Of a stretch of 34,867 nt of DNA, positions 4,356-28,745 are shown piece after piece. Each line of letters begins with the position of its first letter. Position 1 is the stretch's first letter. A model generated the notes under the pieces. It searched no databases. It was not told where the DNA came from and saw only the letters and a list, made by a program, of their open reading frames with translations. The position numbers and the translations under genes are program-made. This DNA comes from Gammaproteobacteria bacterium (GTDB lineage: Bacteria; Pseudomonadota; Gammaproteobacteria; Steroidobacterales; Steroidobacteraceae), in the NCBI GenBank assembly GCA_021773365.1, contig JAJFKF010000103.1:1-34867 (forward strand), in the 5' to 3' direction.

Positions 4356-6731
4356 CTACTGGTCGCCCAGCGCATGAACTGGCCTGGCGCGCGCGGCTGT
4401 CAGTGAATGGAAGAATACTGTTGTCCAGGCGATGCCCAGCGCCACTATTGAAGGTGCGAGGAACATCCACGGCTGAAGGTCGATGCGGTAGGCGAATCCT
4501 TCCAGCCAGCCGCTCATGAGCAGGTAGCCGATGGGCCAGGCGAGGATATTCGCCCACAGAACGGGTTTGCTGAATTGCCAGAGCAGCAGGCCGACGATGT
4601 CCTTACCGGTCGCGCCCAGGGATTTGCGGATGCCGATCTCCCGGGTGCGGCGTTCCGTGGTGGCGGCGGCCAGGCCGATCAGGCCGAGACAGGCCAGTAT
4701 TACCGCGACCACCGAGAAAAGCGCGAAGGCCTGGGCCTGACGCTGCATGGCGAGGTACAGATTCTGGATGTGCTCGTCTAGAAAGAAGCGATTGATCGGT
4801 TCTTCTGCACCGGTGGTGGCGGCCCACAGCCCGTCGATTGCTGCCAGGGTCTGAGGAATCTCCCGACCGTGTAGTTTGATGTTGATCAACTGATAGTCGT
4901 ACCGTGGACCGTACAGACCGGAGTTGTACACCGTCGGGCGAATGGTTTCCTGCGCCGAGTAGAGGGAGAAATCGGCAGATATACCGATGATTGTCTTGGT
5001 GGCGCCACCGAGCTCGGTGATGGGTTGGCCGATGGCCGCAGCCGGGCTGGAGAACCCGAGGCGACTGACGGCTGCTGCATTGACGATGGCCTGCGAACGG
5101 TCCGGACCGGAAGTGCTCCCTAACGGCGCAACTGCGAAGAAATGGCCTTGCAGTGGTTGCAGACCATACATCTGCAGCAGTCCGGGCTCAATCACCACGA
5201 CGTCGATGGCCGACACAGAGCCGTCGCCCAGCCGGTATCGACCGAAGGATCTCCCTGTCAGAAGTCCCTCGCCGGAGCAGAATGCCCCCGCCACGCCCGG
5301 CAACGCACGCACCGCGTCCTTGAATGCCGTGTCGCAGGGTGAACGCACCATGAGGACCTGGTCGGTGTCCAGTCGCAGCGCTTCGTGCGTGGCGTAGAGG
5401 CGCTGCCGGTAGATGACGGCTGCGGCGATCATCAGGCCGATCAGAATCGCGAACTGCGATGTGACAAGCACCTGCCTGACGAGCGCGCCGCTCGTGCGCC
5501 CGACCGGTTGCCGCAGAATTCCGGCAGGACGGAATGCCGATAGTACAAAGGCGGGATAAAGTCCGGCGAGTCCACCTATTACTATCGTGCCGGCCGCGAT
5601 CCAGACGAAGAGTGCGGGATCGCGCCGGTAGTCCATCGTGGCGTCTGAGTTGAGGAATGCATTGGCAGACGGCAGCAGCAGCTCAGCGAGCGCCACGGCA
5701 ACGGTGGCCGCCAGGGCCGCGCAGATGAGTGCCTCACCGAGAAACTGCAGGAGAAGCGTGCGACGGTGCGCTCCGCAGGTCTTGCGAATGCCGACTTCCA
5801 GCGAGCGACGCGCGGCGCGTGCAGTCGCAAGGTTCACGAACACCACGCCGGCGACCAGCAGTACCAGAAACCCCGTTGCCGCAGCGATCGCCAGGCGACC
5901 GGAAACGCCCCGGTTGAAGGCCTCGTGCAGGTGCATACGGTCGATACGGACGAACTGCATTGCGTATTGAAGGTCGCTCGTTCCGCCAAAGTACGCGTCA
6001 AGCGCAGCCGACATTGCCGGCTGCAGCGAGGCCTGTGGTTTGAGGCGTATGTAGGTCTGTGGACCGATTGCGAAGCCTTCCCTGCCATCCGGTGGCGTGT
6101 TCCCGAACGTATCCAGAGAGGAGTAGGGCGCTAGAGCGGACGCGAAGATGCCGCTGCTCAGTCTTGTGCGATGGGCCGGCAGATCCTCAATGACCGCGGC
6201 AACGGTCATGAGATGATCGCGATCGAGCTGCACCGTCTCGCCGATAGGGTTGTCTCGGCCAAAGTATTTGCGGGCGGCGGTCCTTGTCAGCACCAGGCCA
6301 TCCGGTCGGTGCAGTGCGGCCTGCAGATTGCCTGACAGAACAGGCAATGGCAGGACAGCGAAAATATCCGGGTCAGCCCAGTAGATGTACTCCCGTCCCT
6401 CCACGGAAGCATGGCGCAGCGAAACCGTCTGACCCAGCAGGCGGGCGCTGGCTTCGATTTCGGTGAATTTCAGCTGCAAAAGCGCAGCCGCATTCTCGTG
6501 AGTTTCCGCTGCATAGTCGGGTACTCGACCCTGCGGCGTCAGCACTGATACCGCCTGGTAGGTGCGTTCGTAGCCGGCAATGAAGTGCTCGTGGCTCAGT
6601 TCACTGCGGATGGTCAGGCCGATAAGAATGGCGATGCACATGCCGACAGCCAGCGCGACGATGCTGATGCCGGAGTAGAACTTGTTGCGCGCCAGATTGC
6701 GCAGCGCCAATGCAAGATGGTTACGCCACAT
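4356..6731 (-). CDS. FtsX/MacB-type ABC permease, fourth in array
   Basis: A 791-residue permease and the last gene of the efflux operon. Layout: TM1 (about 18-40), a periplasmic MacB_PCD-like domain (to about 275), three TMs of an FtsX core (about 280-400) with VGIRKTCGA at its front, TM5 (about 420-441), a second periplasmic domain, and three final TMs (about 670-780) with REIGIRKSLGA. It is therefore two fused MacB-type halves in one chain. C466 and C485 form the C-x10-LPGV-x4-C motif found in all four copies. Its C-terminus (HALGDQ) differs from the ALRHE ending of the other three. The start lies 14 bases after the preceding permease stop, with GAGG upstream. Such permeases move substrates from the periplasm or outer leaflet using a separate ATPase; substrate unknown. 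Confidence 0.9.
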   Translation of the reverse strand: MWRNHLALALRNLARNKFYSGISIVALAVGMCIAILIGLTIRSELSHEHFIAGYERTYQAVSVLTPQGRVPDYAAETHENAAALLQLKFTEIEASARLLGQTVSLRHASVEGREYIYWADPDIFAVLPLPVLSGNLQAALHRPDGLVLTRTAARKYFGRDNPIGETVQLDRDHLMTVAAVIEDLPAHRTRLSSGIFASALAPYSSLDTFGNTPPDGREGFAIGPQTYIRLKPQASLQPAMSAALDAYFGGTSDLQYAMQFVRIDRMHLHEAFNRGVSGRLAIAAATGFLVLLVAGVVFVNLATARAARRSLEVGIRKTCGAHRRTLLLQFLGEALICAALAATVAVALAELLLPSANAFLNSDATMDYRRDPALFVWIAAGTIVIGGLAGLYPAFVLSAFRPAGILRQPVGRTSGALVRQVLVTSQFAILIGLMIAAAVIYRQRLYATHEALRLDTDQVLMVRSPCDTAFKDAVRALPGVAGAFCSGEGLLTGRSFGRYRLGDGSVSAIDVVVIEPGLLQMYGLQPLQGHFFAVAPLGSTSGPDRSQAIVNAAAVSRLGFSSPAAAIGQPITELGGATKTIIGISADFSLYSAQETIRPTVYNSGLYGPRYDYQLINIKLHGREIPQTLAAIDGLWAATTGAEEPINRFFLDEHIQNLYLAMQRQAQAFALFSVVAVILACLGLIGLAAATTERRTREIGIRKSLGATGKDIVGLLLWQFSKPVLWANILAWPIGYLLMSGWLEGFAYRIDLQPWMFLAPSIVALGIAWTTVFFHSLTAARARPVHALGDQ

Positions 6732-6745
6732 GACGACCTCGCAGG

Positions 6746-9163
6746 CTACTCATGCCGCAGCGCCTCGACCGGCCTGGCGCGTGAGATATGAATCGTGTGA
6801 GCCGCAACAGTCAGCAGCGCGATACCCAGCGCCGCGCCGCTGGCCGCCAGGAACATCCAGGGCTGCAGCTCGATGCGGTAGGCAAAGCCCTGAAGCCAGC
6901 GGTTCACCAGGTAGTAGCCTGCGGGCCATGCGATCAGGTTGGCCCACAGGATGGGCGAAGAAAAACTCCAGAGCAGCAGGCGAATGATGGCGGGTCGGTC
7001 TGCGCCCATTGCTTTGCGGATGCCGATTTCCCGGGTACGCTGTTCGGCGATGAAGCTGGCCAGGCCGAACAAACCCAGACAGGCGAGAATCAGTGCCACG
7101 CCGGCCGCCGCGGTGATCACCTGGATCTGGCGTCTGACATCCCGGTATAGCTGCCGCAGTCGTTCGTCGAAGAACATGCTGCGCGGCGCTCCGCTGTGGC
7201 CGGTGTCCTTCCAGAGCCGTTCGATGGCCAGCAGGGTTTCCGGGATGTCTCGGCCATTCAGTTTCACGTTCAGGTTGCGTGAAATGACCGGATCGATGAA
7301 GAACGCGGTGGGCTCCACCGCCCGCCTGATCGATCCCAGCGGGAAATCCGGCACGACGCCGATGATCTGCGCCGGTCCGGGCATCAGTCTTCCGTCCATG
7401 GTCATGAAGCGCGGAAAGTGAATGCTGCGTCCGACGGCTGCCGCTGGGGAAGCAAATCCGAGGTCGCGGCTGGCCGTAGCATTGATCACCAGTGGTGGTT
7501 GCCGTCGGCTTTCACGGTCTGTGGGCGCGGCGTCGGTGGCGTAGGCGACAGAGAACAGCCGACCTGCGATGGGCCGGATGCCATACAACGTGAAATACTC
7601 GAAATCGACAATCGACTGCCGCAGTGGAACACGCGATCCGCCCGCTATGTCGACATCGAGGGAGATGCCGTTGCCCAGAGGAGCGTTCATCGAGCAGGCT
7701 GTTTTGAGTACACCCGGAAGCCTTGCAAGTTCTTTCCTGAAGGCCCCCAGGCATTCGGAATCACCGACAGAGATGAGCAGAACCTGATTTTTGTCTACAC
7801 GCATGCCCTCGTGCATGGCAAAGTGGATCTGTTCGTATATGACACCTGTCATCAGAACCAGGACGATCAGGACAGAGAACTGGGCAATCACGAGCATCCG
7901 GCGTACGAGTCCAGCGCCGCTGCTTCCAGCCAGAGATGTGTTGAAAATCGCAGCCGGGCGAAACGCCGACATTACGAAGGCCGGATAGGCGCCTGCCAGC
8001 ACGCCGGCAAGTATCACCAACGCCAGTATCGTCCCGCCAAGCTGCGGATCGCGCCAGTAGTCGAACTCGATGGTTCGATCCAGAAAGGCGTTTACCGCGG
8101 GCAGCGAAAGCTCGACGATTCCGAGCGCCATCACGGCGCCCAGCGAGGAGTAGAGCAGGGATTCGCCGATAAATTGCCCTATCAGGCGTATGCGGGTAGC
8201 GCCGGAGGTCTTGCGAACACCGATCTCAACGGCGCGCCGTGCGGCCCGGGCGGTTGTCAGATTGACGAAGTTGATGGCCGCGATCAGCAGAATCAGCACG
8301 CCGAGGGCACAGAGGACACGAATCGTCGTGCGTGGGCTCCTGGTATTCTCTGCCGAGCTGGTGAAATGGTGTAGGTGGACATCGGCAACAGGAATCAGTG
8401 CGAAAGTCTCACTGCAGGCGCCGGCCTTGGCGCACTCGGGCCGTGCACTCTGCGGGTCGAACGAGGTCCCCGGCGTGAGCCGCACGTACGTTGTTGCGAT
8501 GAAGGGCTCAATGCGCGCGGTCTTCCCACGGGAGATATCGAGGGCGCGCAGTGGGGAAATCGTTGCGCTGTTGGATACAAAGATCGACGTTGGCTGCAGA
8601 TGTGTGTTGGACCGCATGTCCTGAGTTACGGCCATGACAGTCATTTCATCGCCACCGCCGAAAGTCAGGGTGCCGCCAATGGGGTATTCGCGACCGAAGT
8701 ATTTGCGCGCGATGCTTTGAGTGATCACGATTCCATCCGGACGTCGCAGTGCATTCTTCAGATCGCCGGCGACTGTTGGCACGGGAAGTACGATGAAGAA
8801 GTCTGGATCGACGGTTGTGATGTTCTCCTGCCCTTCGATATTTCCACGCCGCACGACGGTGTTGGCGCCCGCCGTCCGTGCGACTGCCTCGACCTGCGGG
8901 AACTTCAATTTCAACCAAGCGGCAAGAGTGGGCGAGCTAACTCTGTATTCCCGCTGCTCGCCATTGGGGAGTACGGCGGACGAAGAAACCAGATAGGCGT
9001 TCTCGTGACCGGGAATGAACCGGTCATAGCTGAGTTCGTCGAGCACGAACAGGGCTATCAGAAAGGCCCCGGAAAATCCAATGGCCAGACCGGCGATGTT
9101 GATCGCCGCGTACAGTCTGTTGCGCACCAGATTGCGCAGCGCCGCGATGAGTGCGCTACTCAT
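6746..9163 (-). CDS. FtsX/MacB-type ABC permease, third in array
   Basis: An 805-residue paralogue of its neighbours, with the same fused two-half layout: TM1 (about 20-42), first periplasmic domain, FtsX core beginning VEIGVRKTSGA (about 312-322), TM5 (about 423-444), second periplasmic domain, and a last FtsX core beginning REIGIRKAMGA. The first periplasmic domain has RPDGIVITQSIARKYFGREY (141-160), equivalent to the RPDG...RKYFGR motif of the others. C471 and C490 make the conserved C-x10-LPGV-x4-C pair; two further cysteines at 244 and 250 are unique to this copy. ATG 9163 overlaps the end of the previous permease by 8 bases (ATGAGTAG), so the two are probably translationally coupled. 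It ends ...ALRHE. Confidence 0.92.
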   Translation of the reverse strand: MSSALIAALRNLVRNRLYAAINIAGLAIGFSGAFLIALFVLDELSYDRFIPGHENAYLVSSSAVLPNGEQREYRVSSPTLAAWLKLKFPQVEAVARTAGANTVVRRGNIEGQENITTVDPDFFIVLPVPTVAGDLKNALRRPDGIVITQSIARKYFGREYPIGGTLTFGGGDEMTVMAVTQDMRSNTHLQPTSIFVSNSATISPLRALDISRGKTARIEPFIATTYVRLTPGTSFDPQSARPECAKAGACSETFALIPVADVHLHHFTSSAENTRSPRTTIRVLCALGVLILLIAAINFVNLTTARAARRAVEIGVRKTSGATRIRLIGQFIGESLLYSSLGAVMALGIVELSLPAVNAFLDRTIEFDYWRDPQLGGTILALVILAGVLAGAYPAFVMSAFRPAAIFNTSLAGSSGAGLVRRMLVIAQFSVLIVLVLMTGVIYEQIHFAMHEGMRVDKNQVLLISVGDSECLGAFRKELARLPGVLKTACSMNAPLGNGISLDVDIAGGSRVPLRQSIVDFEYFTLYGIRPIAGRLFSVAYATDAAPTDRESRRQPPLVINATASRDLGFASPAAAVGRSIHFPRFMTMDGRLMPGPAQIIGVVPDFPLGSIRRAVEPTAFFIDPVISRNLNVKLNGRDIPETLLAIERLWKDTGHSGAPRSMFFDERLRQLYRDVRRQIQVITAAAGVALILACLGLFGLASFIAEQRTREIGIRKAMGADRPAIIRLLLWSFSSPILWANLIAWPAGYYLVNRWLQGFAYRIELQPWMFLAASGAALGIALLTVAAHTIHISRARPVEALRHE

Positions 9164-11561
9164 GCCGCAGCGCCGCCACCGGGTTGGCGCGCGCCACCAG
9201 CAGCGCGTGCGTGAACACTGTCAGCAGCGCAACAGCCAGGGCTATCGCGCTGGCGCCGGCGAACATCCACAACTGAAGGTCGATTCGATACGCGAACCCT
9301 TCCAGCCAGCGGTTCATCACGTAGTACCCTGCCGGCCAGGCGAGGAGATTGGCCAGCAGCAGCGGTTTGGAGAAATCCCACAGCAGCATGCGCACCAGGC
9401 GGGAGCGGTCGGCGCCCATTGCCTTGCGGATGCCGATCTCGCGGGTGCGGCTCTCGGCGATGAAGGTGGAGAGGCCGAACACGCCCAGGCAGGCGATGAA
9501 CAGGGCAATCACGGACAGGCCGAGGATCAGCGCCTGCTGTCGGATGACTTCCTCGTACAGCTCCTGGATCCGGTCGTCGAGGAAGCGCCACGCAATCGGC
9601 CATCCATCGGCCATGCCCTTCCAGATGGATTCGACTCCTTGCATGGATTCCGGCATTCGTCGGCCATCAAGTTTGATGCTGACGGCGCCGTAGCCATCGT
9701 CACCTGGAATGTAGTAGCCCTTGGGCGGGATCGACTGACTGCGCAAATCGATGGAGAAGTCAGCCACGACGCCGATGATCTCGAGCTCCAGCGCGGATTC
9801 CGGTCCGATGGGCCAAATCAGGATCTCGCCGATGGCGGCGGCAGCGCTCGGAAATCCGAAACGCCTGATTGCGCTTTCATTCAGAATAATGCTCGATCGG
9901 ATGCCGTTCGCCTCCGGCTTGAACACATCAGCGGGGTGGTCGCGGGAAAAATCACGTCCCGCCAGAATATCTATGGCGTGCAGTTTGAAAAACTCAAAGC
10001 CCACGCGGCCAAGATGGACCAGGTAGCGTTGTCCATTGGGCGCCTTCATAAAGTCGCCACCGTCGCTTAATCCCAGTGCTTCGTACGAAACGCATGCGGC
10101 GTCGATGACACCCGGAACTTTCATGACTTTTTCCGGAAAACTGTCCCTGCACCAGTCGAACAGCACGAAATGCTCATGCTCGAGCCGCAGACCGTCCTGC
10201 AGGCCATACTGTGTCTGCCGATGGATGACGAAGGTGGAAAGGATCAGACCGATTAGCACGGCGAACTGCAGCACCGTCAGCCCCTGGCGTACTCTGGTAG
10301 AGCCCGCCATGCGGGCGGCTTTTCCGCTCATGACGACGGCTGGCCGGAATCGTGTCAGCACCAGGGCTGGATAGATGCCGGCGAGCAGGCCGGTGATGAG
10401 CGTCGAGCCGGCGATCAAACCCCATGAGGCGACGCTCCACGCGGACAGCGCCATCTCCCGCTGCAGTGACGCGTTGATAGTCGGCAGCAATAATTCGAGC
10501 AGCGCGAGGGCCAGCAGGAAGGCGAGGCTCGCGTAGATGACAGCTTCGCCGAGGAACTGAATCATGAGGTTACGGCGCGCGGCACCCGCGGCCTTGCGGA
10601 TGCCGACTTCCATTGCCCGGCGGGTGGCCCGGGCCGTCATCAGGTTAACGAAATTGATGATAGCTATGAGTATGACGAGCAAGCCGGCGGCTGCCATGGC
10701 GGCGACGACCCAGGTGCTGTTGTACGGTTTGATCGACCGCACGCTGTTGGGATACAGATGCAGCTCACTGAGCGGTACCAGATCCAGCCCGACTTTGAGC
10801 TCGCCGCTTTCCACTACTTCCTTCCAGAGTCGCCGCACCAGCTGCGGAAAGTCGTTTTCAATGGCTGATACGCCGCTGCGGTCTGCAAGCCGCAAGTATG
10901 TGAACACATTGACACCGTAAATCGGGTCCTGCCGGTCCAGCCGGCTCAATGCGGAGAACGCGGCGCCGCCGGAGAGGAATATCTGCGTGGTGAGATTGGC
11001 GCTGAAGGGATGGTCTTCAATGACCGCCAGCACCGTCATGGGCTGGCGCCGGATGACCTGCAAGGTTTCGCCAATCGGTTTGTCGCGTCCAAAGTACTTA
11101 CGCGCAGCGCTGCGGGTAAGAACCGCACCATCAGGTCGGGTGACTGCGGCGCTGGCATCGCCCGCAATGACCGGCAGCGGCAGGAGATGGAAGAATTCCG
11201 CGTCCACCCAGCCGACGATTTCGTTCGTCTCGGCCTGATCGGTGGTGATCAGCCGGTTCTCGTGGGCCAGGCGCGCCACTCGCTCGATCTGCGGGTACCC
11301 TGTCCGCAGCGCCGCGGCGAGTCCGGGTGGGGTTGAATCCGCGATGACCTCGGGCCGGCCGGCCGGGGTGTAGCGGGGCGCGGCGAAGTAGGTCTGGTCA
11401 TACCCGGGGATATACCGGTCGTAGCTCAGCTCCTCGTGGACATACAGCGCCGCCAGCAGCGCCGCGGCCATGCCCACCGCCAGCCCGACGATATTGATGG
11501 CCGCATACAGCCGATTGCGCACGAGGTTGCGTAAGGCAGCAGCAAGGTAGTTGCGTAACAC
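9156..11561 (-). CDS. FtsX/MacB-type ABC permease, second in array
   Basis: An 801-residue permease beginning at GTG 11561. Same architecture: TM1 (about 21-41), periplasmic domain with RPDGAVLTRSAARKYFGRDK (142-161), FtsX core from MEVGIRKAAGA (about 317), TM5 (about 426-446), second periplasmic domain, and C-terminal FtsX core with REIGIRKAMGA. C471 and C490 form the conserved motif, here C-x10-VPGV-x4-C. Within the array its C-terminal core looks closest to the third copy (LLAWPAGYYVMNRWLEGFAY against LIAWPAGYYLVNRWLQGFAY), consistent with a recent duplication of this pair. A gap of 106 bases separates it from the first permease, the largest gap in the operon; no clear terminator is seen there. 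Confidence 0.92.
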   Translation of the reverse strand: MLRNYLAAALRNLVRNRLYAAINIVGLAVGMAAALLAALYVHEELSYDRYIPGYDQTYFAAPRYTPAGRPEVIADSTPPGLAAALRTGYPQIERVARLAHENRLITTDQAETNEIVGWVDAEFFHLLPLPVIAGDASAAVTRPDGAVLTRSAARKYFGRDKPIGETLQVIRRQPMTVLAVIEDHPFSANLTTQIFLSGGAAFSALSRLDRQDPIYGVNVFTYLRLADRSGVSAIENDFPQLVRRLWKEVVESGELKVGLDLVPLSELHLYPNSVRSIKPYNSTWVVAAMAAAGLLVILIAIINFVNLMTARATRRAMEVGIRKAAGAARRNLMIQFLGEAVIYASLAFLLALALLELLLPTINASLQREMALSAWSVASWGLIAGSTLITGLLAGIYPALVLTRFRPAVVMSGKAARMAGSTRVRQGLTVLQFAVLIGLILSTFVIHRQTQYGLQDGLRLEHEHFVLFDWCRDSFPEKVMKVPGVIDAACVSYEALGLSDGGDFMKAPNGQRYLVHLGRVGFEFFKLHAIDILAGRDFSRDHPADVFKPEANGIRSSIILNESAIRRFGFPSAAAAIGEILIWPIGPESALELEIIGVVADFSIDLRSQSIPPKGYYIPGDDGYGAVSIKLDGRRMPESMQGVESIWKGMADGWPIAWRFLDDRIQELYEEVIRQQALILGLSVIALFIACLGVFGLSTFIAESRTREIGIRKAMGADRSRLVRMLLWDFSKPLLLANLLAWPAGYYVMNRWLEGFAYRIDLQLWMFAGASAIALAVALLTVFTHALLVARANPVAALRHE

Positions 11562-11667
11562 TGGTACTGCCTATGGCTCCGCCGCCAGCCGGGGCATGCG
11601 AACTTTCTGGTGGCGAAGTTGGCTGAATACCCGACTGCAAGGGATTGCGGCGAGCATGTTGTGGCGG

Positions 11668-14064
11668 CTATTCATGTCGCAACGCCTCGACCGGTTTGGT
11701 CCGTGCCGCACGGGCGGCCTGGCCTGACACTGTGACCCAGGCAATCACCAGCGCGATCGCGCCGGCAAGCACGAACGTCCGAAGTTCAAGTTCGACGTGA
11801 TAGGCAAAACCCGCCAGCCAGCGCTGCGTAAGAAGGTAGGCGACCGGCCAGGCGATCAGGTTGGCCAGTAACACGGGTTTTGAGAAATCCCACAGCAGCA
11901 GCTGCGCGATGTGGCGACTGCCTGCGCCCATGGCCTTGCGGATACCGACTTCCCTGGCGCGCTTGTGCGCGGCCAGTACCGAAAGGCCGAACAAACCCAG
12001 GCAGGCGATGCTGATCGTAATCGATGAGAACACCAGTGACATCACGCGCTGTCGGTTCTCCTGTTGATACTGTTCGTGCAGGTGTTGCTCGACAAACAGG
12101 CGTGTGATGGGCCGCGGCTCTCCCATGCTTTGCCACAAACGGTCGATCGCCTGCAGCGTTGCGGCTGATTCGTCCTGGAGCAGGCCCGGACGCAGCTTGA
12201 TGCTGATCGCCCCTTCTCCTTGCTCCCTGATGCGAAAAAGAGTGGGCTCCACCGCATCACGGACCGACGTCGTCGGGAAATCCGGCACCACGCCCACGAT
12301 ATGCAGGCCGGGGGAGCGCGCATCGCCATGGATAGGCTGGCTCAGGGACGCGGCAGGCGAGGAGAATCCGAAGCTGCGTACGGCCGTCTGGTTGATGAGG
12401 ACGGCGCTGGTGTCGGTTTCCCGGTCCGCATCGCCGATGCGGAAGAGGCGTCCCGCCACCGGTTGCAGTCCATACAGGTGGAAGAACCCGGTACTCACGG
12501 CTGACTCGCGCACGAGCATGACTTTGCCGTTGACGCGGATGGATGAGGCGGAAATCTGCACGGGAACCGGCGTTGAAGCCGAGCAGGCGGTTTCTTCGAC
12601 GCCCGGGAGTTTGCCGATCTCCGTCATGAGCGCGGGGCGGCACTGTCCGATGACCGCCACTACCCGGTTCGTATCCAGGCGCACCGCCTCGTTGAGGGCG
12701 AAATCCATCTGGCGCTGAATGACGGCGCTGATGCAGATCAGCGCGATTAGCACGGCGAACTGGATCGTGACTAGCCATCGGCGTACCTGGCCGGCCCGCA
12801 CGCCCGGATCGACCTCGCTCTTCAGGGCCGCGACCGGACGCAGCCCGGCGAGCACCACAGCCGGGTACATTCCCGCCAGCAGCGCGCTGAACAGAGCTGT
12901 GGCGATTGCGCCACAAATGAAGAGAATGTCGGCGCCATAGTTCAACGATAAATTTCGATCCAGAAAGGTATTCAGTATCGGCAGTGCAAGTTCCGTCACG
13001 GCGAATGCGATCACGATGGCGACCGCTGAATACAGCAACGCCTCTGCAAGAAATTCCCGCATCAGATCGATGCGGGATGCGCCGAAGGTTTTGCGCACGC
13101 CGATCCCCACGGTGCGGCGCGCTGCGCCAGCCATTATGAGTGTGATGAAATTGATCGCGGCCACGGCAACGATCAATGCGCCCACCGCCGATAACACCCA
13201 TAAGAATGAGTAGCTGCCAGTAGGATTTTTGGTAAATACGGCCTGATCTTCGAAATACGAATCGGCGAGCGGCACGAGCGGAAAAGAAAGCGAAAACTTC
13301 TGAGCTGAATCGACCTGCAAATACGTCGGCACCAAGGCGCGCAAGGCCTCATCGACACCGCCGGCGTCGTTCGCGGCGGGCAGTTTTACGTAGAGTGCGC
13401 TGTCGCTGTCGAGGTTGCCCTGAGGGCGCGAAGCGTTGTCGGCCGCATAGAGGGGAGAAAAGCTCGCGTTAGAAGATAGGAAGAGGTTCCTTTTGAGATG
13501 GGTATTGGCCGGGAAATCCTCAATAATCGCCGCGACGCGGAGCGGGTGAATGCGGTTCAGCTCAAGCGTCTGGCCCAGTGCGTCGATCGTGCCAAAAAAC
13601 TTGATCGCGAGCGATCGTGTCAACACCGCGGTTTCTGGATTGCTTATTGCGTCATCGAGCGTTCCGGCGACGACCGTGGGCGGGAATATATCGAAGAACC
13701 CGGGGTCGACCCATTGCGGCCTTTCATTGAACTCCAGCGAGCCATGACGCAAACCTGCCTTACCGTCTGTCAACCGGGCCAGGATTGACTGCGGCGGAAG
13801 CTTCTCTCTCAGGCGTGCGGCGAGGCTGCTGGGCGCGGCGTCGATGATCATTGGTGATCCGCCATCCATCCCGATGATCATTGTCACCTTGTAGATGCGC
13901 TCGCTGTCCGGCCAGAACCGATCGAAGCGCAGTTCATCGCGCACGAACAGGGCGATCAGCAGCGCCGCGGCGAGTGCAATGCCCAATCCCGTCAGGTTGA
14001 TCGCGGCGAGGAGCTTGTGGCGGATAAGATTGCGCACCGCGGAGCTGAGGTGAAACTCTCGCAC
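11668..14064 (-). CDS. FtsX/MacB-type ABC permease, first in array
   Basis: A 798-residue permease starting at GTG 14064 (CAGGA 9 bases upstream), 22 bases after the ATPase gene. It has the same eight-helix, two-periplasmic-domain plan but is the most divergent of the four: the motif that reads RKYFGR in its paralogues is IKFFGTIDALG (154-164), and the last core reads REVGIRKAMGA. C475 and C494 keep the C-x10-LPGV-x4-C spacing exactly. Being next to the ATPase it may be the founding partner, with the others derived by duplication, but this is inference. It ends ...ALRHE like the second and third copies. Confidence 0.92.
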   Translation of the reverse strand: MREFHLSSAVRNLIRHKLLAAINLTGLGIALAAALLIALFVRDELRFDRFWPDSERIYKVTMIIGMDGGSPMIIDAAPSSLAARLREKLPPQSILARLTDGKAGLRHGSLEFNERPQWVDPGFFDIFPPTVVAGTLDDAISNPETAVLTRSLAIKFFGTIDALGQTLELNRIHPLRVAAIIEDFPANTHLKRNLFLSSNASFSPLYAADNASRPQGNLDSDSALYVKLPAANDAGGVDEALRALVPTYLQVDSAQKFSLSFPLVPLADSYFEDQAVFTKNPTGSYSFLWVLSAVGALIVAVAAINFITLIMAGAARRTVGIGVRKTFGASRIDLMREFLAEALLYSAVAIVIAFAVTELALPILNTFLDRNLSLNYGADILFICGAIATALFSALLAGMYPAVVLAGLRPVAALKSEVDPGVRAGQVRRWLVTIQFAVLIALICISAVIQRQMDFALNEAVRLDTNRVVAVIGQCRPALMTEIGKLPGVEETACSASTPVPVQISASSIRVNGKVMLVRESAVSTGFFHLYGLQPVAGRLFRIGDADRETDTSAVLINQTAVRSFGFSSPAASLSQPIHGDARSPGLHIVGVVPDFPTTSVRDAVEPTLFRIREQGEGAISIKLRPGLLQDESAATLQAIDRLWQSMGEPRPITRLFVEQHLHEQYQQENRQRVMSLVFSSITISIACLGLFGLSVLAAHKRAREVGIRKAMGAGSRHIAQLLLWDFSKPVLLANLIAWPVAYLLTQRWLAGFAYHVELELRTFVLAGAIALVIAWVTVSGQAARAARTKPVEALRHE

Positions 14065-18450: not shown

Positions 18451-19787
18451 GTGCCACGCTGTTTGCCCTCGGCATCGGCATTCGCGCCGCCCTGGTGGGG
18501 TTGATCGCCTTCGCGGTGCTGGAGCTGCTGGCGACGCAGCGGCTGTATGCCACGGCGCTGGTGCTGACCGGAATCGGTGCGCTCATACTCGCCGATCTGG
18601 TGCGCTGTATCACCCGGGGTGATCGCCTGATGGAACGGTTTGTCGAGGGACTGGCGGCCGGTGACTTCGAGCGGCCTGCGCCGGCCGGCGTCGGCAGCGG
18701 CCTGCGGCGGCTGCGCGCGGCCATCGCCCGGGCGGCGACGAATCTCAATGCCGCACGCGCGGCGCGGCAGCTGAAGATCGATTACCTGCAGACGCTGATC
18801 GACAATGTCTCGGTGGCCCTGCTGGTGGTGCAGCCGGACGGAACGCTGGCACTGGCCAACCGCGCCGCCAGAAAGCTGGCCGGACGTCACGCCAATCATC
18901 TGCGGCAGTTGTCTGCCGTTGGCGAGGCGGCCGCCGCGCAACTGCTCAAACTGAAGCCGGGTGAGCGGCAGGTAGTACGGCTGGCCAATGGGCAGCGGGT
19001 GCTGGGATCGGCGGCACGGTTCTCAACAGCCGGCGCCCGCTACCAGTTGCTGTCGCTGCAGAACATTCAGAGCGAACTGGATGCGGCGGAGCTGAAGGCG
19101 TGGCAGGACCTGGTGCGGATCCTGGCGCACGAGATGATGAACTCCCTGACACCCATCGCCTCGCTGGCGGAAAGTCTGAAGCCGCTGGTGTCCGTGCCCG
19201 ACAATGACGCCGGCAATGATGTGGCGGGGGCCATCGACGCCATCGCCCGCCGCAGCACCGGGCTGATGAGTTTTGTCGAGCGCTACCGCCAGATGGCTGA
19301 TCTTCCGGCGGTGCAGCCGCGTCAGATCCGGCTGGCAGAGCTGCTCGGCCGTATCGACCGGGTGATGAGCGCCACCATGGCCGACAGTGGTGTGAGCTAC
19401 GCCAGCACCGTGGAGCCGCCGGAGCTGATGCTTCATGCTGATCCCGATCTGCTGGAGCAGGCGCTGATCAATGTCATCCACAATGCTGCCGAAGCGGTCG
19501 CCGGCACGGAAGCGCCACGCGTTGAGGTGCGTGCAATCGCCAATGGTGAGTCGATAGCAATCCGGGTGGCCGACAATGGCCCGGGTCTGGACGACACCCA
19601 GCTGGATCGCATCTTCGTGCCGTTTTTCACCACCAAGCAGGGCGGCTCGGGCATCGGGCTGAGCCTGGCGCGGCAGATCGCACTGGCGCATCGGGGGAGG
19701 CTGGAGGTGTCTGCGAACGTTCCGCGCGGTGCGGTTTTCGTACTTACTATCCCTGTCGGTGCAGACTTATGCAGCCCCGGTCGGTAA
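18447..19787 (+). CDS. NtrY-like sensor histidine kinase
   Basis: A 446-residue membrane kinase. Two N-terminal helices (about 5-27 and 33-52) with almost no periplasmic loop are followed by a HAMP-like linker, a PAS-like region (about 112-205), and a HisKA box with LAHEMMNSLTPIASLAES (His229). The ATPase domain has the N-box INVIHNAAEAV (341-351), G1 DNGPG (376-380) and G2 GGSGIGLSLARQ (399-410). The minimal periplasmic part suggests it senses a membrane or cytoplasmic signal. It is coupled to the response regulator by an ATGA overlap and is divergent from the efflux operon, which it probably controls; that last point is inference from position. Confidence 0.93.
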   Translation: MSATLFALGIGIRAALVGLIAFAVLELLATQRLYATALVLTGIGALILADLVRCITRGDRLMERFVEGLAAGDFERPAPAGVGSGLRRLRAAIARAATNLNAARAARQLKIDYLQTLIDNVSVALLVVQPDGTLALANRAARKLAGRHANHLRQLSAVGEAAAAQLLKLKPGERQVVRLANGQRVLGSAARFSTAGARYQLLSLQNIQSELDAAELKAWQDLVRILAHEMMNSLTPIASLAESLKPLVSVPDNDAGNDVAGAIDAIARRSTGLMSFVERYRQMADLPAVQPRQIRLAELLGRIDRVMSATMADSGVSYASTVEPPELMLHADPDLLEQALINVIHNAAEAVAGTEAPRVEVRAIANGESIAIRVADNGPGLDDTQLDRIFVPFFTTKQGGSGIGLSLARQIALAHRGRLEVSANVPRGAVFVLTIPVGADLCSPGR

Positions 19788-19810
19788 TGCGGCGAGGGCG
19801 GTGCCGGGCC

Positions 19811-19933
19811 CGGATTGATGGGCCGGGGAGGCATTTCCGGGGACCGGCTGCAAGACGCCATCCATGGCGGCCTTGGGAAAAACCATCCAGGTTTTTCACA
19901 TCCCCGGAAATGCCTCCCCGACCCATCAATCCG
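19811..19933. repeat. Long palindromic element A (33-base arms, two inner hairpins)
   Basis: Arms at 19811-19843 and 19901-19933 are complementary over 33 bases with one mismatch. The 57-base centre holds two smaller hairpins: CGCCAT-CC-ATGGCG, and GAAAAACC (19877-19884) with GGTTTTTC (19890-19897). The second, with its flanks GGGAAAAAC and GTTTTTCACA, recurs in element B at 22685-22801, whereas the outer arms differ. It sits 23 bases after the histidine kinase stop and could end that transcript, but it has no T-run. Confidence 0.85.
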
Positions 19934-20000
19934 AGCCTGGAAGTCCACTACTGGGCGGGGCTCATGTCGCTGGATTGTAATGGTGCAATGGATGCACTAG

Positions 20001-20117
20001 CATCGCTGTGCCGGCGATGCGGATTCGCGCGATACGGCGGAGGCGATTGCCTGGGCGCGTCGCCATCGCGTTGACCTCAGGGAACGGTGGCGTGAGTATT
20101 CCGCAGAGGAAGTTTGA
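20001..20117 (+). pseudogene. Possible C-terminal remnant of a DUF4160-type gene
   Basis: The frame is open for 38 codons from the stop at 19998 to TGA 20115-20117 but has no good start codon. Its peptide ends AEAIAWARRHRVDLRERWRE, followed by YSAEEV, which resembles the end of DUF4160 proteins (a helix, then a Trp-containing tail). DUF4160 genes commonly sit directly upstream of DUF2442 genes, and a DUF2442 gene follows here. The N-terminal HFH-type part is not found, and palindrome A lies just upstream, so the gene may have been cut down. The match is short and could be chance. Confidence 0.35.
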
Positions 20118-20128
20118 AGAGCCCAGCC

Positions 20129-20572
20129 ATGAGTGCAACCAAAGCCATCCGTATCGGGAGTGTCAGGTGTGCTGGCGATTTCATCCTGCGGTTGCGCTGG
20201 GTCGACGGCAGCGTCATGGCCGTTGACCTGAGCGAGCCGGTGCGCCGCTTGAAGGGTCTGCGTCCACTGAGAAACAAAGCGGTTTTCGCGCAGGCCGCGA
20301 AAGGGGAAGGTGGGCACAGCGTTGTGTGGCCCGGCGATCTCGACATGGGTGCAGACCGGCTATGGGAGCTGGCACTGGAGCAATCCGGACATCACGATAC
20401 GGTTGCGTTCATCCGCTGGCGCAGGCGGCACGAATTGAGTCTCACGCAAGCCGCGGAGGCCTTGGGTCTTTCGCGCCGGCAGGTGGCCTACTACGCCAGC
20501 GGCAAACACCCGGTTCCGCGTACTGTGTTGCTCGCCTGCAAAGGCTGGGAGGCCGAACAGCGGGCCGCGTAG
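20129..20572 (+). CDS. DUF2442 protein with C-terminal helix-turn-helix
   Basis: A 147-residue protein in two parts. Residues 1-82 match DUF2442: FILRLRWVDGSVMAVDLSEP (18-37), LRPLRNKAVFAQA (44-56) and HSVVWPGDLDMGADRLWE (63-80). Residues 95-127 form an XRE-like helix-turn-helix (RWRRRHELSLTQAAEALGLS, then RRQVAYYASGKHPVP). DUF2442 proteins are often paired with DUF4160 proteins and suspected, but not shown, to act in toxin-antitoxin-like modules. The HTH extension suggests DNA binding, perhaps autoregulation. A TTG at 20114, overlapping the stop of the upstream remnant and preceded by AGAGGA, is an alternative start adding five residues. Confidence 0.75.
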   Translation: MSATKAIRIGSVRCAGDFILRLRWVDGSVMAVDLSEPVRRLKGLRPLRNKAVFAQAAKGEGGHSVVWPGDLDMGADRLWELALEQSGHHDTVAFIRWRRRHELSLTQAAEALGLSRRQVAYYASGKHPVPRTVLLACKGWEAEQRAA

Positions 20573-20648
20573 TGGACGCAGCGAGCGCTGAACCGTGCCG
20601 TTGCCGGGCCCAGGCCCCGGCGCGCGGGTTCATGGCGTGGGCAGGTGC

Positions 20649-21290
20649 CTAACTGCGCCAGCGTGTCGTCCAGCGCGTGATGACCAGATCCGGATATTCG
20701 CGGCGGCCGACGCTGCCGTTGTAGCGCGCCAGCGCCTTGCGCACGTCGCCTTTCTCGCGGTCGTAGTAGTGGCGCAGGATGGCGCAGCCCATGCGGATGT
20801 TGGCTTCGATCTGCATGAGCTGATGGCGCTTCATGCCGAGTTCCTCGGGCCAGAAGGGCATCACCTGCATCAGTCCCTGGGCGCCGGCGCTGGACACGGC
20901 CCAGTGATTGAATGCGCTTTCCACATCGATGACGGCCAGCACCAGTTCGGCGGGCAGCTTGCGCGCGCGCGATTCGCAGTAGACATGGCGCAGGATCTCG
21001 ATGCGCGTCTGGTGATCCTTGAGGTAGCGGCGCAGGCGCGGCTCCATGAGCTTGTACCAGACCTCCGCGTCGTACTTGTCGGCAAAGCACTTGCCGGCGG
21101 CTATGGCTTCGGCAACGACTTTCTTGAGCTCCGGATCGGACTGGCGCTGGGCGTGTGCTGCCGTAGAGATTAGTGCAGTGGCCAGCAGTGCGGGCAGCAG
21201 CGCTGTGGCAAACAGACGCGTTACGGCAGCAAGACGGTTCACACCGCCACGCCCGCGGACGGTGTCCGGGAAGCTAACGTTATGCGCCAT
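20649..21290 (-). CDS. Periplasmic lytic transglycosylase (SLT domain)
   Basis: A 213-residue exported protein. A basic N-terminus and hydrophobic core (about 24-44) end at STAAHAQ, a likely signal-peptidase site. The Slt70-type domain (about 108-205) has VIDVESAFNHWAVSSAGAQG (120-139), with catalytic Glu124, then LMQVMPFWP (140-148) and ARYNGSVGRREYP (188-200). It cleaves peptidoglycan glycan strands to 1,6-anhydro products. ATG 21290 is chosen because AAGG lies about 10 bases upstream; ATG 21299 has its Shine-Dalgarno too close. The gene starts 13 bases after proS on the same strand, so the two probably share a transcript. Confidence 0.88.
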   Translation of the reverse strand: MAHNVSFPDTVRGRGGVNRLAAVTRLFATALLPALLATALISTAAHAQRQSDPELKKVVAEAIAAGKCFADKYDAEVWYKLMEPRLRRYLKDHQTRIEILRHVYCESRARKLPAELVLAVIDVESAFNHWAVSSAGAQGLMQVMPFWPEELGMKRHQLMQIEANIRMGCAILRHYYDREKGDVRKALARYNGSVGRREYPDLVITRWTTRWRS

Positions 21291-21303
21291 CGGCAACATG
21301 CCT

Positions 21304-22641
21304 TCAGCGTCCGCGCAGCCGCTCTTGTAAAAAGGCCAGTGCTTCATCGCTTGCGAACTCGACGGACTCGGCCGCCCTGCGGTGGCGGTACTCCAGTTTG
21401 CCGGCTTCCAGGCCGCGGTCGCCGATGACCACCCGATGCGGGATGCCGATCAGTTCCGCTTCAGCAAATTTGACGCCGGGGCGCACGTCGCGGTCGTCCA
21501 GCAGCACCTCGATGCCTGCTGCGGTGAGCTGGCGGTAGAGTTTCTCGCTGGTCTCGGCCACACGAGTGGACTTGTGCATGTTGATCGGGGTGAGGATGAC
21601 CTGAAAGGGCGCCACGGCGTCCGGCCAGATGATGCCGGCCTCATCGTGGCTGGCTTCGATAATGGCGCCAACCAGGCGCGAGACGCCGATGCCATAGGAG
21701 CCCATTTCGACAAAGTGGTCCTGGCCGTCCGGCCCGGCCACCACGGCCTTCATGGCCTTGGAGTACTTGGTACCGAAGTAGAAGATGTGCCCGACCTCGA
21801 TGCCGCGCGCCGAGAGGCGGCGGTCCTCGGGTACCCGTGTTTCGAACTCTGCTGCATCGTGCTTTTCTTCGGTGGCCGCGTACAGATCGGTGCGGGCGCG
21901 GATCAGCGGTTCCAGGTCGCCGTCGAAATCCACGGTCTCATCCGGCACCGGCATGTCGATGAGCGTCTTGTCGCAGTACACCTGGCTCTCGCCGGTGTCG
22001 GCGAGGACGATGAACTCGTGCGAGAGTTCGCCGCCGATGGGGCCGGTGTCGGCGCGCATGGGCACCGACTTCAGCCCCATGCGGGCGAAGGTGCGCAGGT
22101 AGGCGACGAACATGCGGTTGTAGGCACGGCGGGCGCCTGCGGGGTCGAGATCGAAGGAGTAGGCGTCCTTCATCAGGAATTCCCGGCCGCGCATGATGCC
22201 GAAGCGCGGGCGGATCTCGTCGCGGAATTTCCACTGGATGTGGTAGAGGTTCAGCGGCAGGCTCTTGTAGCTGCGCACATAGGCGCGGAAGATCTCCGTC
22301 ACCATTTCCTCGTTGGTGGGGCCGTAGAGCAGGTCGCGCTCGTGGCGGTCCTTGATGCGCAACATCTCCTTGCCGTAGTCGTCATAACGTTCGCTCTCGC
22401 GCCACAGGTCGGCCTGCTGCAGGGTGGGCATGAGCAACTCTACCGCGCCAGCGCGGTTCTGCTCCTCGCGCACGATCTGCTCGATTTTCTTCATCACGCG
22501 CAGGCCCAGGGGCAGCCAGGCGTAGATGCCGGCGGCTTCCTGGCGGATCATGCCGGCACGGAGCATCAGGCGGTGGGAGACGATCTGTGCCTCGGCGGGG
22601 GTGTCTTTGAGGATGGGCAGGAAGTAACGGGACAGGCGCAT
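21304..22641 (-). CDS. proS: Prolyl-tRNA synthetase, short form with reduced insertion domain
   Basis: A 445-residue class II synthetase that attaches proline to tRNA-Pro. Class II motif 2 is [21 protein letters not shown] (139-159) and motif 3 is [15 protein letters not shown] (314-328). The anticodon-binding domain (about 345-445) has [20 protein letters not shown]. Between motifs 2 and 3 there are about 155 residues, far fewer than in the usual 570-residue gammaproteobacterial enzyme, so the full INS editing domain that removes mischarged Ala is missing. This short form is typical of Alphaproteobacteria. Organisms with it usually rely on a free-standing editing protein, not seen in this window. 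ATG 22641 has GAGAG about 6 bases upstream. Confidence 0.96.
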
Positions 22642-22684
22642 GTAAAACTCTCGGCCGTGAATAGAAAAAGTCAGTGCCGGGTTC

Positions 22685-22801
22685 GGCGCTGGCTGGCGGG
22701 GGAGGGCTTTTCAGGACCGCCGTGAATACATCCCTGTAGGCTCTGGGAAAAACGTCCTGTTTTTCACAGTCCTGAAAAGCCCTCCCCCGCCAGCCAGCGC
22801 C
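22685..22801. repeat. Long palindromic element B (perfect 32-base arms)
   Basis: Arms at 22685-22716 and 22770-22801 are perfectly complementary over 32 bases. The 53-base centre holds TACA-TCCC-TGTA and a second hairpin, GAAAAAC-GTCCT-GTTTTTC, flanked by GGG and ACA exactly as in element A. It lies between the divergent starts of proS and pssA, so it cannot be a terminator for either gene. Because it separates their promoter regions it may influence both or insulate them. Confidence 0.88.
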
Positions 22802-22865
22802 AGCGCGGCAGTGGTGGCAGTTCCGGTGGATTGGGGCCGTATCTTAACGTGATATCGTGCGCGTC

Positions 22866-23654
22866 ATGGAAGAGCAGAAGAATATGGAGCTGGAAACGTC
22901 CCCGGAGCGCTCGTCGGAGCACCCTCGCCGGCGCGGGATCTACCTGCTGCCCAACCTGATCACCTCGGCGGCTCTGTTCGCCGGGTTTTACGCCATTGTC
23001 GCGGCCATCGACGGCAACTATGTGCATGCGGGCGCTGCGGTGTTCGTCGCCATGATTCTTGATGGACTCGACGGGCGGGTGGCACGGCTGACCAGCACCG
23101 AGTCGGCCTTCGGCAAGGAGTACGACAGCCTCTCGGACATGGTGTGCTTTGGCTTGGCGCCGGCCATCGTGGCCTATCAGTGGGGCGTGGCGCGGATTGC
23201 CGAGTACGGCACCATCTGGGAGCGCGGCGGGTGGCTGGCCACTTTCTTCTTCGCAGTGGCCGCTGGACTGAGACTGGCGCGGTTCAATTCGCGTCCTTCG
23301 AGCGCGGGCAAGGATTATTTTGAAGGGCTGCCCAGTCCTTCGGCGGCTGCCATTGTCGCGGCCTTTGTGTGGTTCTCCAGCGAGTGGCGCGAACCGGGGC
23401 TGGTCGGACTGATTGCGGCCTTCCTGGTTACGATTTGCGCCGGGGCGCTGATGGTCAGTCGCTTTCCCTACTACAGTTTCAAGAAAATCAACGTGGGCGA
23501 GCGGGTGCCGTTTGCCTACTTCCTGGTCGTGCCGCTGGTGTTCATCCTGATCGCATTGAAGCCGCCGGTGGTGTTGTTTGTGTTGTTCAGCCTGTATGCA
23601 CTGTCAGCACCGGCGTGGTGGTCGGTGCGCCGCCTGCGTCGTCGTCGAGCCTGA
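22866..23654 (+). CDS. pssA: CDP-diacylglycerol--serine O-phosphatidyltransferase
   Basis: A 262-residue membrane enzyme that makes phosphatidylserine, the precursor of phosphatidylethanolamine. The CDP-alcohol phosphotransferase motif is complete: DGRVAR (69-74), then G83, D87 and D91 in [31 protein letters not shown] (28-47) begins the membrane part, with about seven further hydrophobic segments. The C-terminus is very basic (RRLRRRRA), as expected for a membrane-surface tail. Start choice is uncertain: ATG 22866 is used, GTG 22857 is three codons earlier, and ATG 22884 has a weak GGAAGAG before it. It heads a tight run with the uracil-DNA glycosylase (8-base gap) and rimI. Confidence 0.94.
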
Positions 23655-28631: not shown

Positions 28632-28639
28632 TTGGGGCT

Positions 28640-28714
28640 GGGCCGGAGGCCAGAGTTATCCACAATTCAAGGGGGGGATTCCCGTGAATTGTGGATAACT
28701 CTGGCCTCCGGCCC
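28640..28714. repeat. Perfect 30-base palindrome with two inverted DnaA boxes (element C)
   Basis: Arms at 28640-28669 and 28685-28714 are perfectly complementary over 30 bases around a 15-base loop. Each arm contains a consensus DnaA box: TTATCCACA at 28656-28664 and its complement TGTGGATAA at 28690-28698. It starts 9 bases after the prfC stop. There is no T-run, so intrinsic termination is uncertain. It does not share the inner sequence of elements A and B. Confidence 0.85.
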
Positions 28715-28745
28715 GGCGCGGCACGGGAGAGTTTGGGAGATTCAA

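Follow-up and report, generated by a model that had tools for sequence, protein, structure and literature searches.

Dispersed palindromic elements with paired GGA loops in Gammaproteobacteria: possible unrecognised CsrA-binding RNAs

Introduction

Two long palindromic elements, A and B, stand less than 3 kb apart in a Steroidobacteraceae genome and share their inner hairpins although their arms differ. Which strand of such an element folds, into what kind of molecule, and to what effect? The window analysed here (the whole stretch of DNA, 34,867 nucleotides) is an entire contig (C6) of a source genome of 3.97 Mb in 157 contigs with a completeness of 98.95%. An earlier note on this DNA considered a cruciform, a REP-like mobile element and an RNA fold.

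REP and BIME sequences, which are associated with RAYT transposases, are dispersed intergenic palindromes that sometimes occur in inverted pairs. CsrA/Rsm proteins are global regulators, and the RNA antagonists known for them stem from one sRNA gene or a few in each genome. A review (PMC7652899) gives RUACARGGAUGU as the CsrA SELEX consensus, describes the binding of RsmE to an ANGGAN hexaloop and states that a CsrA dimer bridges sites 10-63 nt apart with an optimum above 18. It also describes RNA antagonists with many GGAs per molecule, for example CsrB with 22, and adds that high hairpin stability may be unfavourable for CsrA.

Results

A dispersed family includes elements A and B

Element A is flanked by a histidine-kinase-like gene and a DUF2442/HTH gene. 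A proline--tRNA ligase gene (PF00587, PF03129; 64.6% to an annotated proline--tRNA ligase) starts 43 nt from element B; the minus strand of B, which carries GGA in the loops, is the sense strand of this downstream proS-like gene (21304-22641). The arms of A comprise 40 nt and stand 57 nt apart, those of B 33 nt and 51 nt apart, and both elements enclose a GGGAAAAAC...GTTTTTCAC hairpin and a second small hairpin (Table 1). In folding of the plus-strand DNA, none of 200 shuffles was as good as either element. Together with the arm complementarity, this bears out the description of A and B as true long palindromes with shared inner hairpins.

Table 1 Features of elements A and B in the window. 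R1 is a covariance model of the family; z values refer to plus-strand DNA folded against shuffles
Feature	Position	Strand	Basis and remarks
Element A, whole	19804..19940	minus (presumed functional strand, i.e. GGA strand)	inverted arms; R1 match 19810-19934 minus, E 5.6e-18; fold z -11.3
Element A, left arm of long stem	19804..19843		93% complementary to 19901-19940
Element A, right arm of long stem	19901..19940		inverted-arm analysis
Element A, hairpin 2	19856..19869	minus	CGCC-AUGGAU-GGCG, ANGGAN hexaloop; sequence and fold
Element A, hairpin 1	19875..19899	minus	GUGAAAAACCUGGAUGGUUUUUCCC; core pattern match
Element B, whole	22685..22801	minus (presumed functional strand)	inverted arms; R1 match 22684-22802 minus, E 3.2e-23; fold z -12.85
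Element B, left arm	22685..22717		100% complementary to 22769-22801
Element B, right arm	22769..22801		inverted-arm analysis
Element B, hairpin 2	22727..22738	minus	UAC-AGGGAU-GUA; class-wide pattern match 22718-22738 minus
Element B, hairpin 1	22745..22767	minus	GUGAAAAACAGGACGUUUUUCCC, loop AGGAC; core pattern match

Two further features of the window were recorded. A palindrome at 28637-28717 (arms of 37 nt, 95% complementary, 7 nt apart) contains TTATCCACA, which we take to be a DnaA-box-like word; it lies between an RF3-like gene and an ATG22/MFS-like gene and has two copies in the genome (C6, C99). In plasmid searches, the RF3-like protein had a 64% identical counterpart on a Pseudomonas aeruginosa record, and the proline--tRNA ligase a 66% identical one on a Shinella record. 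The region 4356-14064 holds four tandem ORFs of about 800 aa with common repeats; the one that was scanned is a MacB/FtsX-like permease.

The view that a folded structure is conserved or copied hinged on further copies with complementary arms, and these were found. The core GGGAAAAAC-N4-12-GTTTTTCAC occurred at 52 exact places of the source genome, versus none for the reversed control pattern. The covariance model R1, built from 28 copies, matched at least 77 distinct places (E <= 0.01, both strands of a place counted once, 150 of 1740 candidates scored), and pattern searches alone added two more. Some 27 of the 77 R1 places lie within about 15 bp of a contig end, and some may be halves of one element; the copy number is therefore uncertain. 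Long palindromes probably fragment the source assembly.

Arms were scored in 50 distinct copies. At least 28 bp of arm were present in 32 of them (range 29 to 37), while 15 of the other 18 were cut by or at a contig end and three (L011, L022, L037) were interrupted or decayed. In the 32 full copies, a left arm was 97.5% identical to its own right arm and 54.8% identical to that of another copy, and none of 2000 re-pairings reached the observed agreement. RNAalifold returned 43 consensus pairs for 28 copies, 29 of them changed on both sides in at least one copy. A folded structure with covarying arms is thus conserved or copied, and in many copies, as the earlier note had proposed, and its claim that arms differ between copies while each copy stays self-complementary is upheld. 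The arms are nevertheless not unrelated: per-position values in the 32 copies revealed a loose family consensus near the core, with divergence outward.

Several variations of the basic plan were observed. Extra nested hairpins replace the simple hairpin 2 in at least five copies (L024, L035, L042, L044, L048) and in L007, which is cut by a contig end. In several copies (e.g. L034, L048, L129) an internal loop parts the main stem from a further, outer inverted repeat that is specific to the copy, which looks like an extension of the palindrome into flanking DNA. An origin of the arms by inverted duplication of the insertion target was rejected as a general rule, given arms of 29-37 bp with a family consensus near the core and a further outer repeat in some copies only. 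Several copies of the source genome (e.g. L001, L034, L038) have the word TTCATGAAC in common, some 30-45 bp outside one arm or both. The ends of many called genes next to an element lie about 30-34 bp from its arm, and the element may supply their stop codon.

Wobble pairs favour a fold of the GGA strand

The GGA strand folds as a long variable stem that closes a three-way junction with two GGA-loop hairpins, in the order long stem, hairpin 1, short linker, hairpin 2, long stem. The strand was tested through arm mismatches, since a G-U on one strand is an A-C on the other. For a set independent of the model, the class was searched with hairpin 2 alone (TACAGGGAYGTATTYACRGCG), part of the places were fetched, and the arms were examined afterwards. 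This yielded 93 copies, three of them without enough flank; 80 of the remaining 90 possessed the long stem (at least 18 Watson-Crick pairs, median arm 30). Arm G-U pairs numbered 120 on the GGA strand versus 49 on the other (p = 5e-8), and 44 copies favoured the GGA strand versus 10. Removal of the six innermost columns left a ratio of 113:49; counted by genome without these columns, 13 genomes were for the GGA strand, two against (G122, G234) and six tied (sign test, p = 0.007). A mostly model-derived set gave 163 G-U pairs on the GGA strand versus 40 on the CATCC strand, a ratio that is biased because the covariance model itself scores G-U on one strand. In the source genome's pattern-only set the bias was weak (15:7).

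The excess of G-U pairs indicates that folding is strand-specific, which we regard as very probable, and that the GGA strand, folded and single-stranded, is the target of selection or of transcription-linked mutation. Folded single-stranded DNA also tolerates G-T pairs, so that the wobble bias is no proof of RNA; RNA is nonetheless, in our judgement, probably the acting molecule. Of the options in the earlier note, whose text used the CATCC strand, the data favour a strand-specific fold, on the opposite strand, and disfavour a plain double-stranded cruciform. Our gradings of strand-specific folding, of RNA and of CsrA as ligand are judgements and not computed values.

Loops and spacing resemble CsrA sites

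Hairpin 2 of element B, read on the minus strand (UACAGGGAUGUA / CUACAGGGAUGUA), fits the CsrA SELEX consensus; with the preceding C, 11 of 12 positions match RUACARGGAUGU (PMC7652899). In hairpin 1 of element A, the A of ANGGA is missing. Across the 93 class-wide copies, the best hexaloop hairpin upstream of hairpin 2 was ANGGAN in 57, from 17 of 22 genomes and with 14 different closing stems; on the opposite strand an ANGGAN hexaloop hairpin was present in none of the 93. Hairpin 1 was not a clean ANGGAN hexaloop in 36 copies, and many of its stems are GC-rich. By a looser test, 79 of the 93 copies had a GGA in or beside the hairpin 1 loop. Two GGAs stood 19-21 nt apart in 78 of the 79 measurable copies, a spacing within the bridging range of a CsrA dimer (10-63 nt; PMC7652899).

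The model-derived set agreed in content and was less tidy in spacing. Its central 66 nt contained at least two GGAs in 128 of 131 copies on the GGA strand versus 53 on the other, and ANGGA in 125 copies versus 7. In the 40 copies with exactly two GGAs in the centre, the spacing was 20-22 in 27 and either 13 or 37-55 in the rest; all 40 values, lying between 13 and 55, fall within this bridging range. The loops closely match CsrA docking sites, and the elements may be unrecognised CsrA-binding RNAs; we put the chance that a CsrA-family protein is the ligand at about even.

Distribution and conservation

None of the 58 relatives searched is a congener of the source genome. The exact core was confined to the source genome (1 of 59 genomes), and R1 matched in 16 of 59, i.e. 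the source and 15 relatives; G054 had 39 model matches. For 14 of these 15 relatives (all but G010) the best copy was folded, and its architecture equals that of A and B. Hairpin 2 occurred in 23 of 369 genomes of the class, from 22 of 272 genera, with up to 77 matches in one genome. Match numbers can differ within a genus: in g314, G481 had none, G544 had 20 and G579 had 13. In a sample of the phylum it was found in nine of 299 genomes, all of the window's class, and in none of the 212 from other classes. Three genomes (G000, G403, G111) were positive in both samples, so that 29 different genomes carry hairpin 2. One matching stretch was found in viral contigs. Plasmids were searched with two query copies: B had one weak match, and L202 matched a 1.8 Mb Halomonas replicon, where a full element is present. 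One copy was seen in Halomonas sp. PA16-9. Searched against E. coli genomes, L202 had no match.

In G045 and G058, two genomes of one genus, elements occupy three orthologous intergenic regions. The elements can be aligned, with compensated changes in their arms, whereas large parts of the intergenic DNA around them hardly can. This conservation is hard to reconcile with inert relics. Elements also occur in multiples. In L273 (G598) a tandem array of units of about 227 bp, each with one element and a short hairpin GCGGCTGAAGCCGCTCCTACA, includes five exact hairpin 2 matches and a sixth variant; the short hairpin resembles Pseudomonas-type REPs. Elements of the relatives also form close inverted pairs (L140, L145, L146, L148 and L153) with gaps of 59 to about 160 bp, mostly between convergent genes and with the GGA strands directed away from each other.

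Gene context and termination

Gene contexts are approximate, as they rest on two home-made gene callings. In CATCC orientation, the 45 source-genome copies with both neighbours comprised 8 (+,+), 15 (+,-), 3 (-,+) and 19 (-,-), and the corresponding 67 copies of the relatives 15, 38, 1 and 13. Divergent gaps were rare (3/45 and 1/67), B being one of the three. The class-wide set of 86 copies with both neighbours was mixed (31, 22, 18 and 15), including 15 divergent ones, and orientation to neighbouring genes is inconsistent across the class. Where an upstream neighbour was called in the relatives, 55 of 70 copies stand behind it in the CATCC sense. A consistent 3'-end role was rejected, since this preference is strong in the relatives but not in the class-wide set.

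A search for intrinsic terminators (a stem followed by a T run) in 19700-22900 returned two sites versus a mean of 2.0 in shuffles, and the site predicted inside A is A's own inner hairpin. Simple termination is accordingly unlikely as the common role, in agreement with the earlier note. The divergent position of B, on which the note relied, is rare in the source genome and cannot define a common role.

Relation to known families

No Rfam family reached its cut-off on the elements in the window or in the scanned loci. Matches to microRNA families were below the cut-off and were rejected as chance matches of long hairpins. One of the two closest known families is TwoAYGGAY (RF01731), to which one locus aligned over the full model on the GGA strand; with 36.8 bits, this best score among 20 loci stayed below the gathering score of 43 bits, and none of 11 source-genome loci matched at E <= 1. 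TwoAYGGAY is reported from human gut, gamma-Proteobacteria and Clostridiales (PMC2864571), and is predicted by others to bind CsrA and to have a poorly conserved external stem (PMC4333381). The external closing stem is present in our elements as well. As to the AYGGAY loops, hairpin 2 reads AGGGAU in B and AUGGAU in A, and the second position of the loop in hairpin 1 holds a Y in 18 of the 57 ANGGAN copies. In contrast to TwoAYGGAY, this position is A or G in the other 39, and dispersed copies reach tens per genome.

The model of the Yersinia sRNA Ysr224 (RF02770) holds the complement of hairpins 2 and 1. The best match, 47 bits (E 9.2e-8), fell short of the gathering score of 70 bits; 13 of 14 match rows lie on elements, all 13 on the CATCC strand. 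Besides being catalogued on the opposite strand, Ysr224 differs in a printed model structure without the long closing stem. The main text of the Y. pestis sRNA paper PMC3770706 does not mention it. The strand of Ysr224 is the strongest single item against a reading on the GGA strand, unless transcription covers both strands or the strand in the catalogue matters less.

The sponge sRNAs CsrB/CsrC and RsmX/Y/Z resemble the elements in bearing GGA loops on hairpins with at least two sites per molecule. Unlike the many loci with two loops each found here, they are encoded by one or a few genes with many GGAs, and their Rfam models had no match in the window or the scanned loci. REP/BIME sequences share the dispersed, intergenic, palindromic character and the occasional inverted pairing, whereas our elements exceed 100 nt and carry conserved GGA loops. 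Literature searches on loop sequences, CsrA, repeats and REP, mostly judged without full text, brought up no family of many dispersed copies with covarying arms. Hence, the kind of RNA is already known (TwoAYGGAY), while its high-copy dispersed form with covarying arms appears unreported in the literature searched.

csrA genes

The source genome contains ten csrA genes (L051-L058, L116, L117), compared with 0 to 4 in the 58 relatives; this is the highest count among the 369 class genomes, followed by 8. All ten proteins retain R44, a critical RNA-binding residue (PMC7652899). Across the class, by counts read by eye from tables, csrA was present in 22 of 23 element-positive and 291 of 346 negative genomes (Fisher, p = 0.23). 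Genomes with at least two csrA genes made up 8 of 23 versus 64 of 346 (p = 0.10), or 7 of 22 without the source genome (p = 0.16). No csrA was found in the positive genome G398 (85% complete), and G303, with 8 csrA genes, has no hairpin 2 match. Neither presence nor number of csrA discriminates carriers significantly, and no association is claimed; the ten copies are thus treated as suggestive.

Discussion

Elements A and B are members of a dispersed family of structured elements that very probably act as single-stranded nucleic acid. Copy number, strand bias of the folding, covariation, loop sequence and spacing, and conservation at three orthologous sites are observed; RNA as the molecule, CsrA as the ligand and titration as the effect are inferred. 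In our preferred reading, drawn from sequence comparison and held at a probability of roughly 0.5, each is a minus-strand RNA that would bind a CsrA/Rsm-family protein, with titration or coupling as the effect. The long variable stem would hold the three-way junction and present two hairpins whose ANGGAN-type loops are spaced by about 20 nt. Such an RNA might arise as part of a long UTR, through read-through or from a promoter of the element, and each copy could then bind one CsrA/Rsm-family dimer across its two loops. Collectively, the copies might titrate CsrA or link the transcripts in which they lie to it.

The main rival is a mobile element that folds as single-stranded DNA, one strand of which is recognised by a Y1 or other transposase or recombinase, as with REP/RAYT or IS200/IS605 ends; the loops would then be DNA-protein contacts instead of CsrA sites. 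We consider it unlikely. The wobble bias would also be expected, and mobility agrees with the many dispersed copies and their lineage-specific expansions (77 hairpin 2 matches in one genome, 39 model matches in G054), with the inverted close pairs, and with the tandem array whose short hairpin we take to be REP-like. Y1 transposases were found in 19 of 23 positive and 221 of 346 negative genomes (Fisher, p = 0.07). However, a search of the source genome for Y1 transposases (PF01797) had no match at 98.95% completeness, nor were any found in G295, with 26 hairpin 2 matches, G111 or G403. A RAYT as the current mobiliser was rejected for the source genome, and the REP-like option of the earlier note, in its REP/RAYT version, finds no support there, given the missing Y1 match, an element length well over 100 nt and loops that fit CsrA sites. 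Mobility is also poorly matched by a single viral-contig stretch and, on plasmids with two queries, one weak match and one Halomonas replicon, and by the retention of elements with compensated changes at three orthologous sites. It leaves CsrA-consensus loops at a near-fixed spacing unexplained.

Alternatively, functionless palindromes might be kept perfect by template switching, the covariation arising when one arm is copied onto the other. Close perfect inverted repeats are hot spots for such quasipalindrome correction, and the outer copy-specific inverted repeats of several copies (e.g. L034, L048, L129) are what palindrome extension would leave. This process acts on both DNA strands, though, and should leave no G-U bias on one of them; nor does it explain why loops and loop spacing are kept across 22 genomes. 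We hold it to be improbable. Least probable of all is a 3'-end element on the mRNA of the upstream gene (a terminator or decay barrier, as in REP/BIME) in the CATCC sense, to which the 55 of 70 copies in relatives, the rarity of divergent gaps and the catalogued strand of Ysr224 point, against wobbles that favour the GGA strand, a terminator signal near A and B that stays at chance level, and mixed class-wide contexts.

Taken further, the CsrA-binding reading would make the elements class-wide, self-spreading RNAs with paired CsrA sites: tens of sponges per genome would form a genome-wide titration network, the expansion to ten csrA paralogues would be its host counterpart, and the stem would be free to evolve since only its double-strandedness matters. 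We regard this extended version as rather doubtful. With tens of dispersed loci, each bearing a suitably spaced pair of CsrA-type hairpins, CsrA titration would have to be reckoned differently, and a family of repeats would gain a regulatory function. The elements moreover connect TwoAYGGAY with Ysr224, both orphan entries of Rfam, and make one ask which Ysr224 strand is the relevant one.
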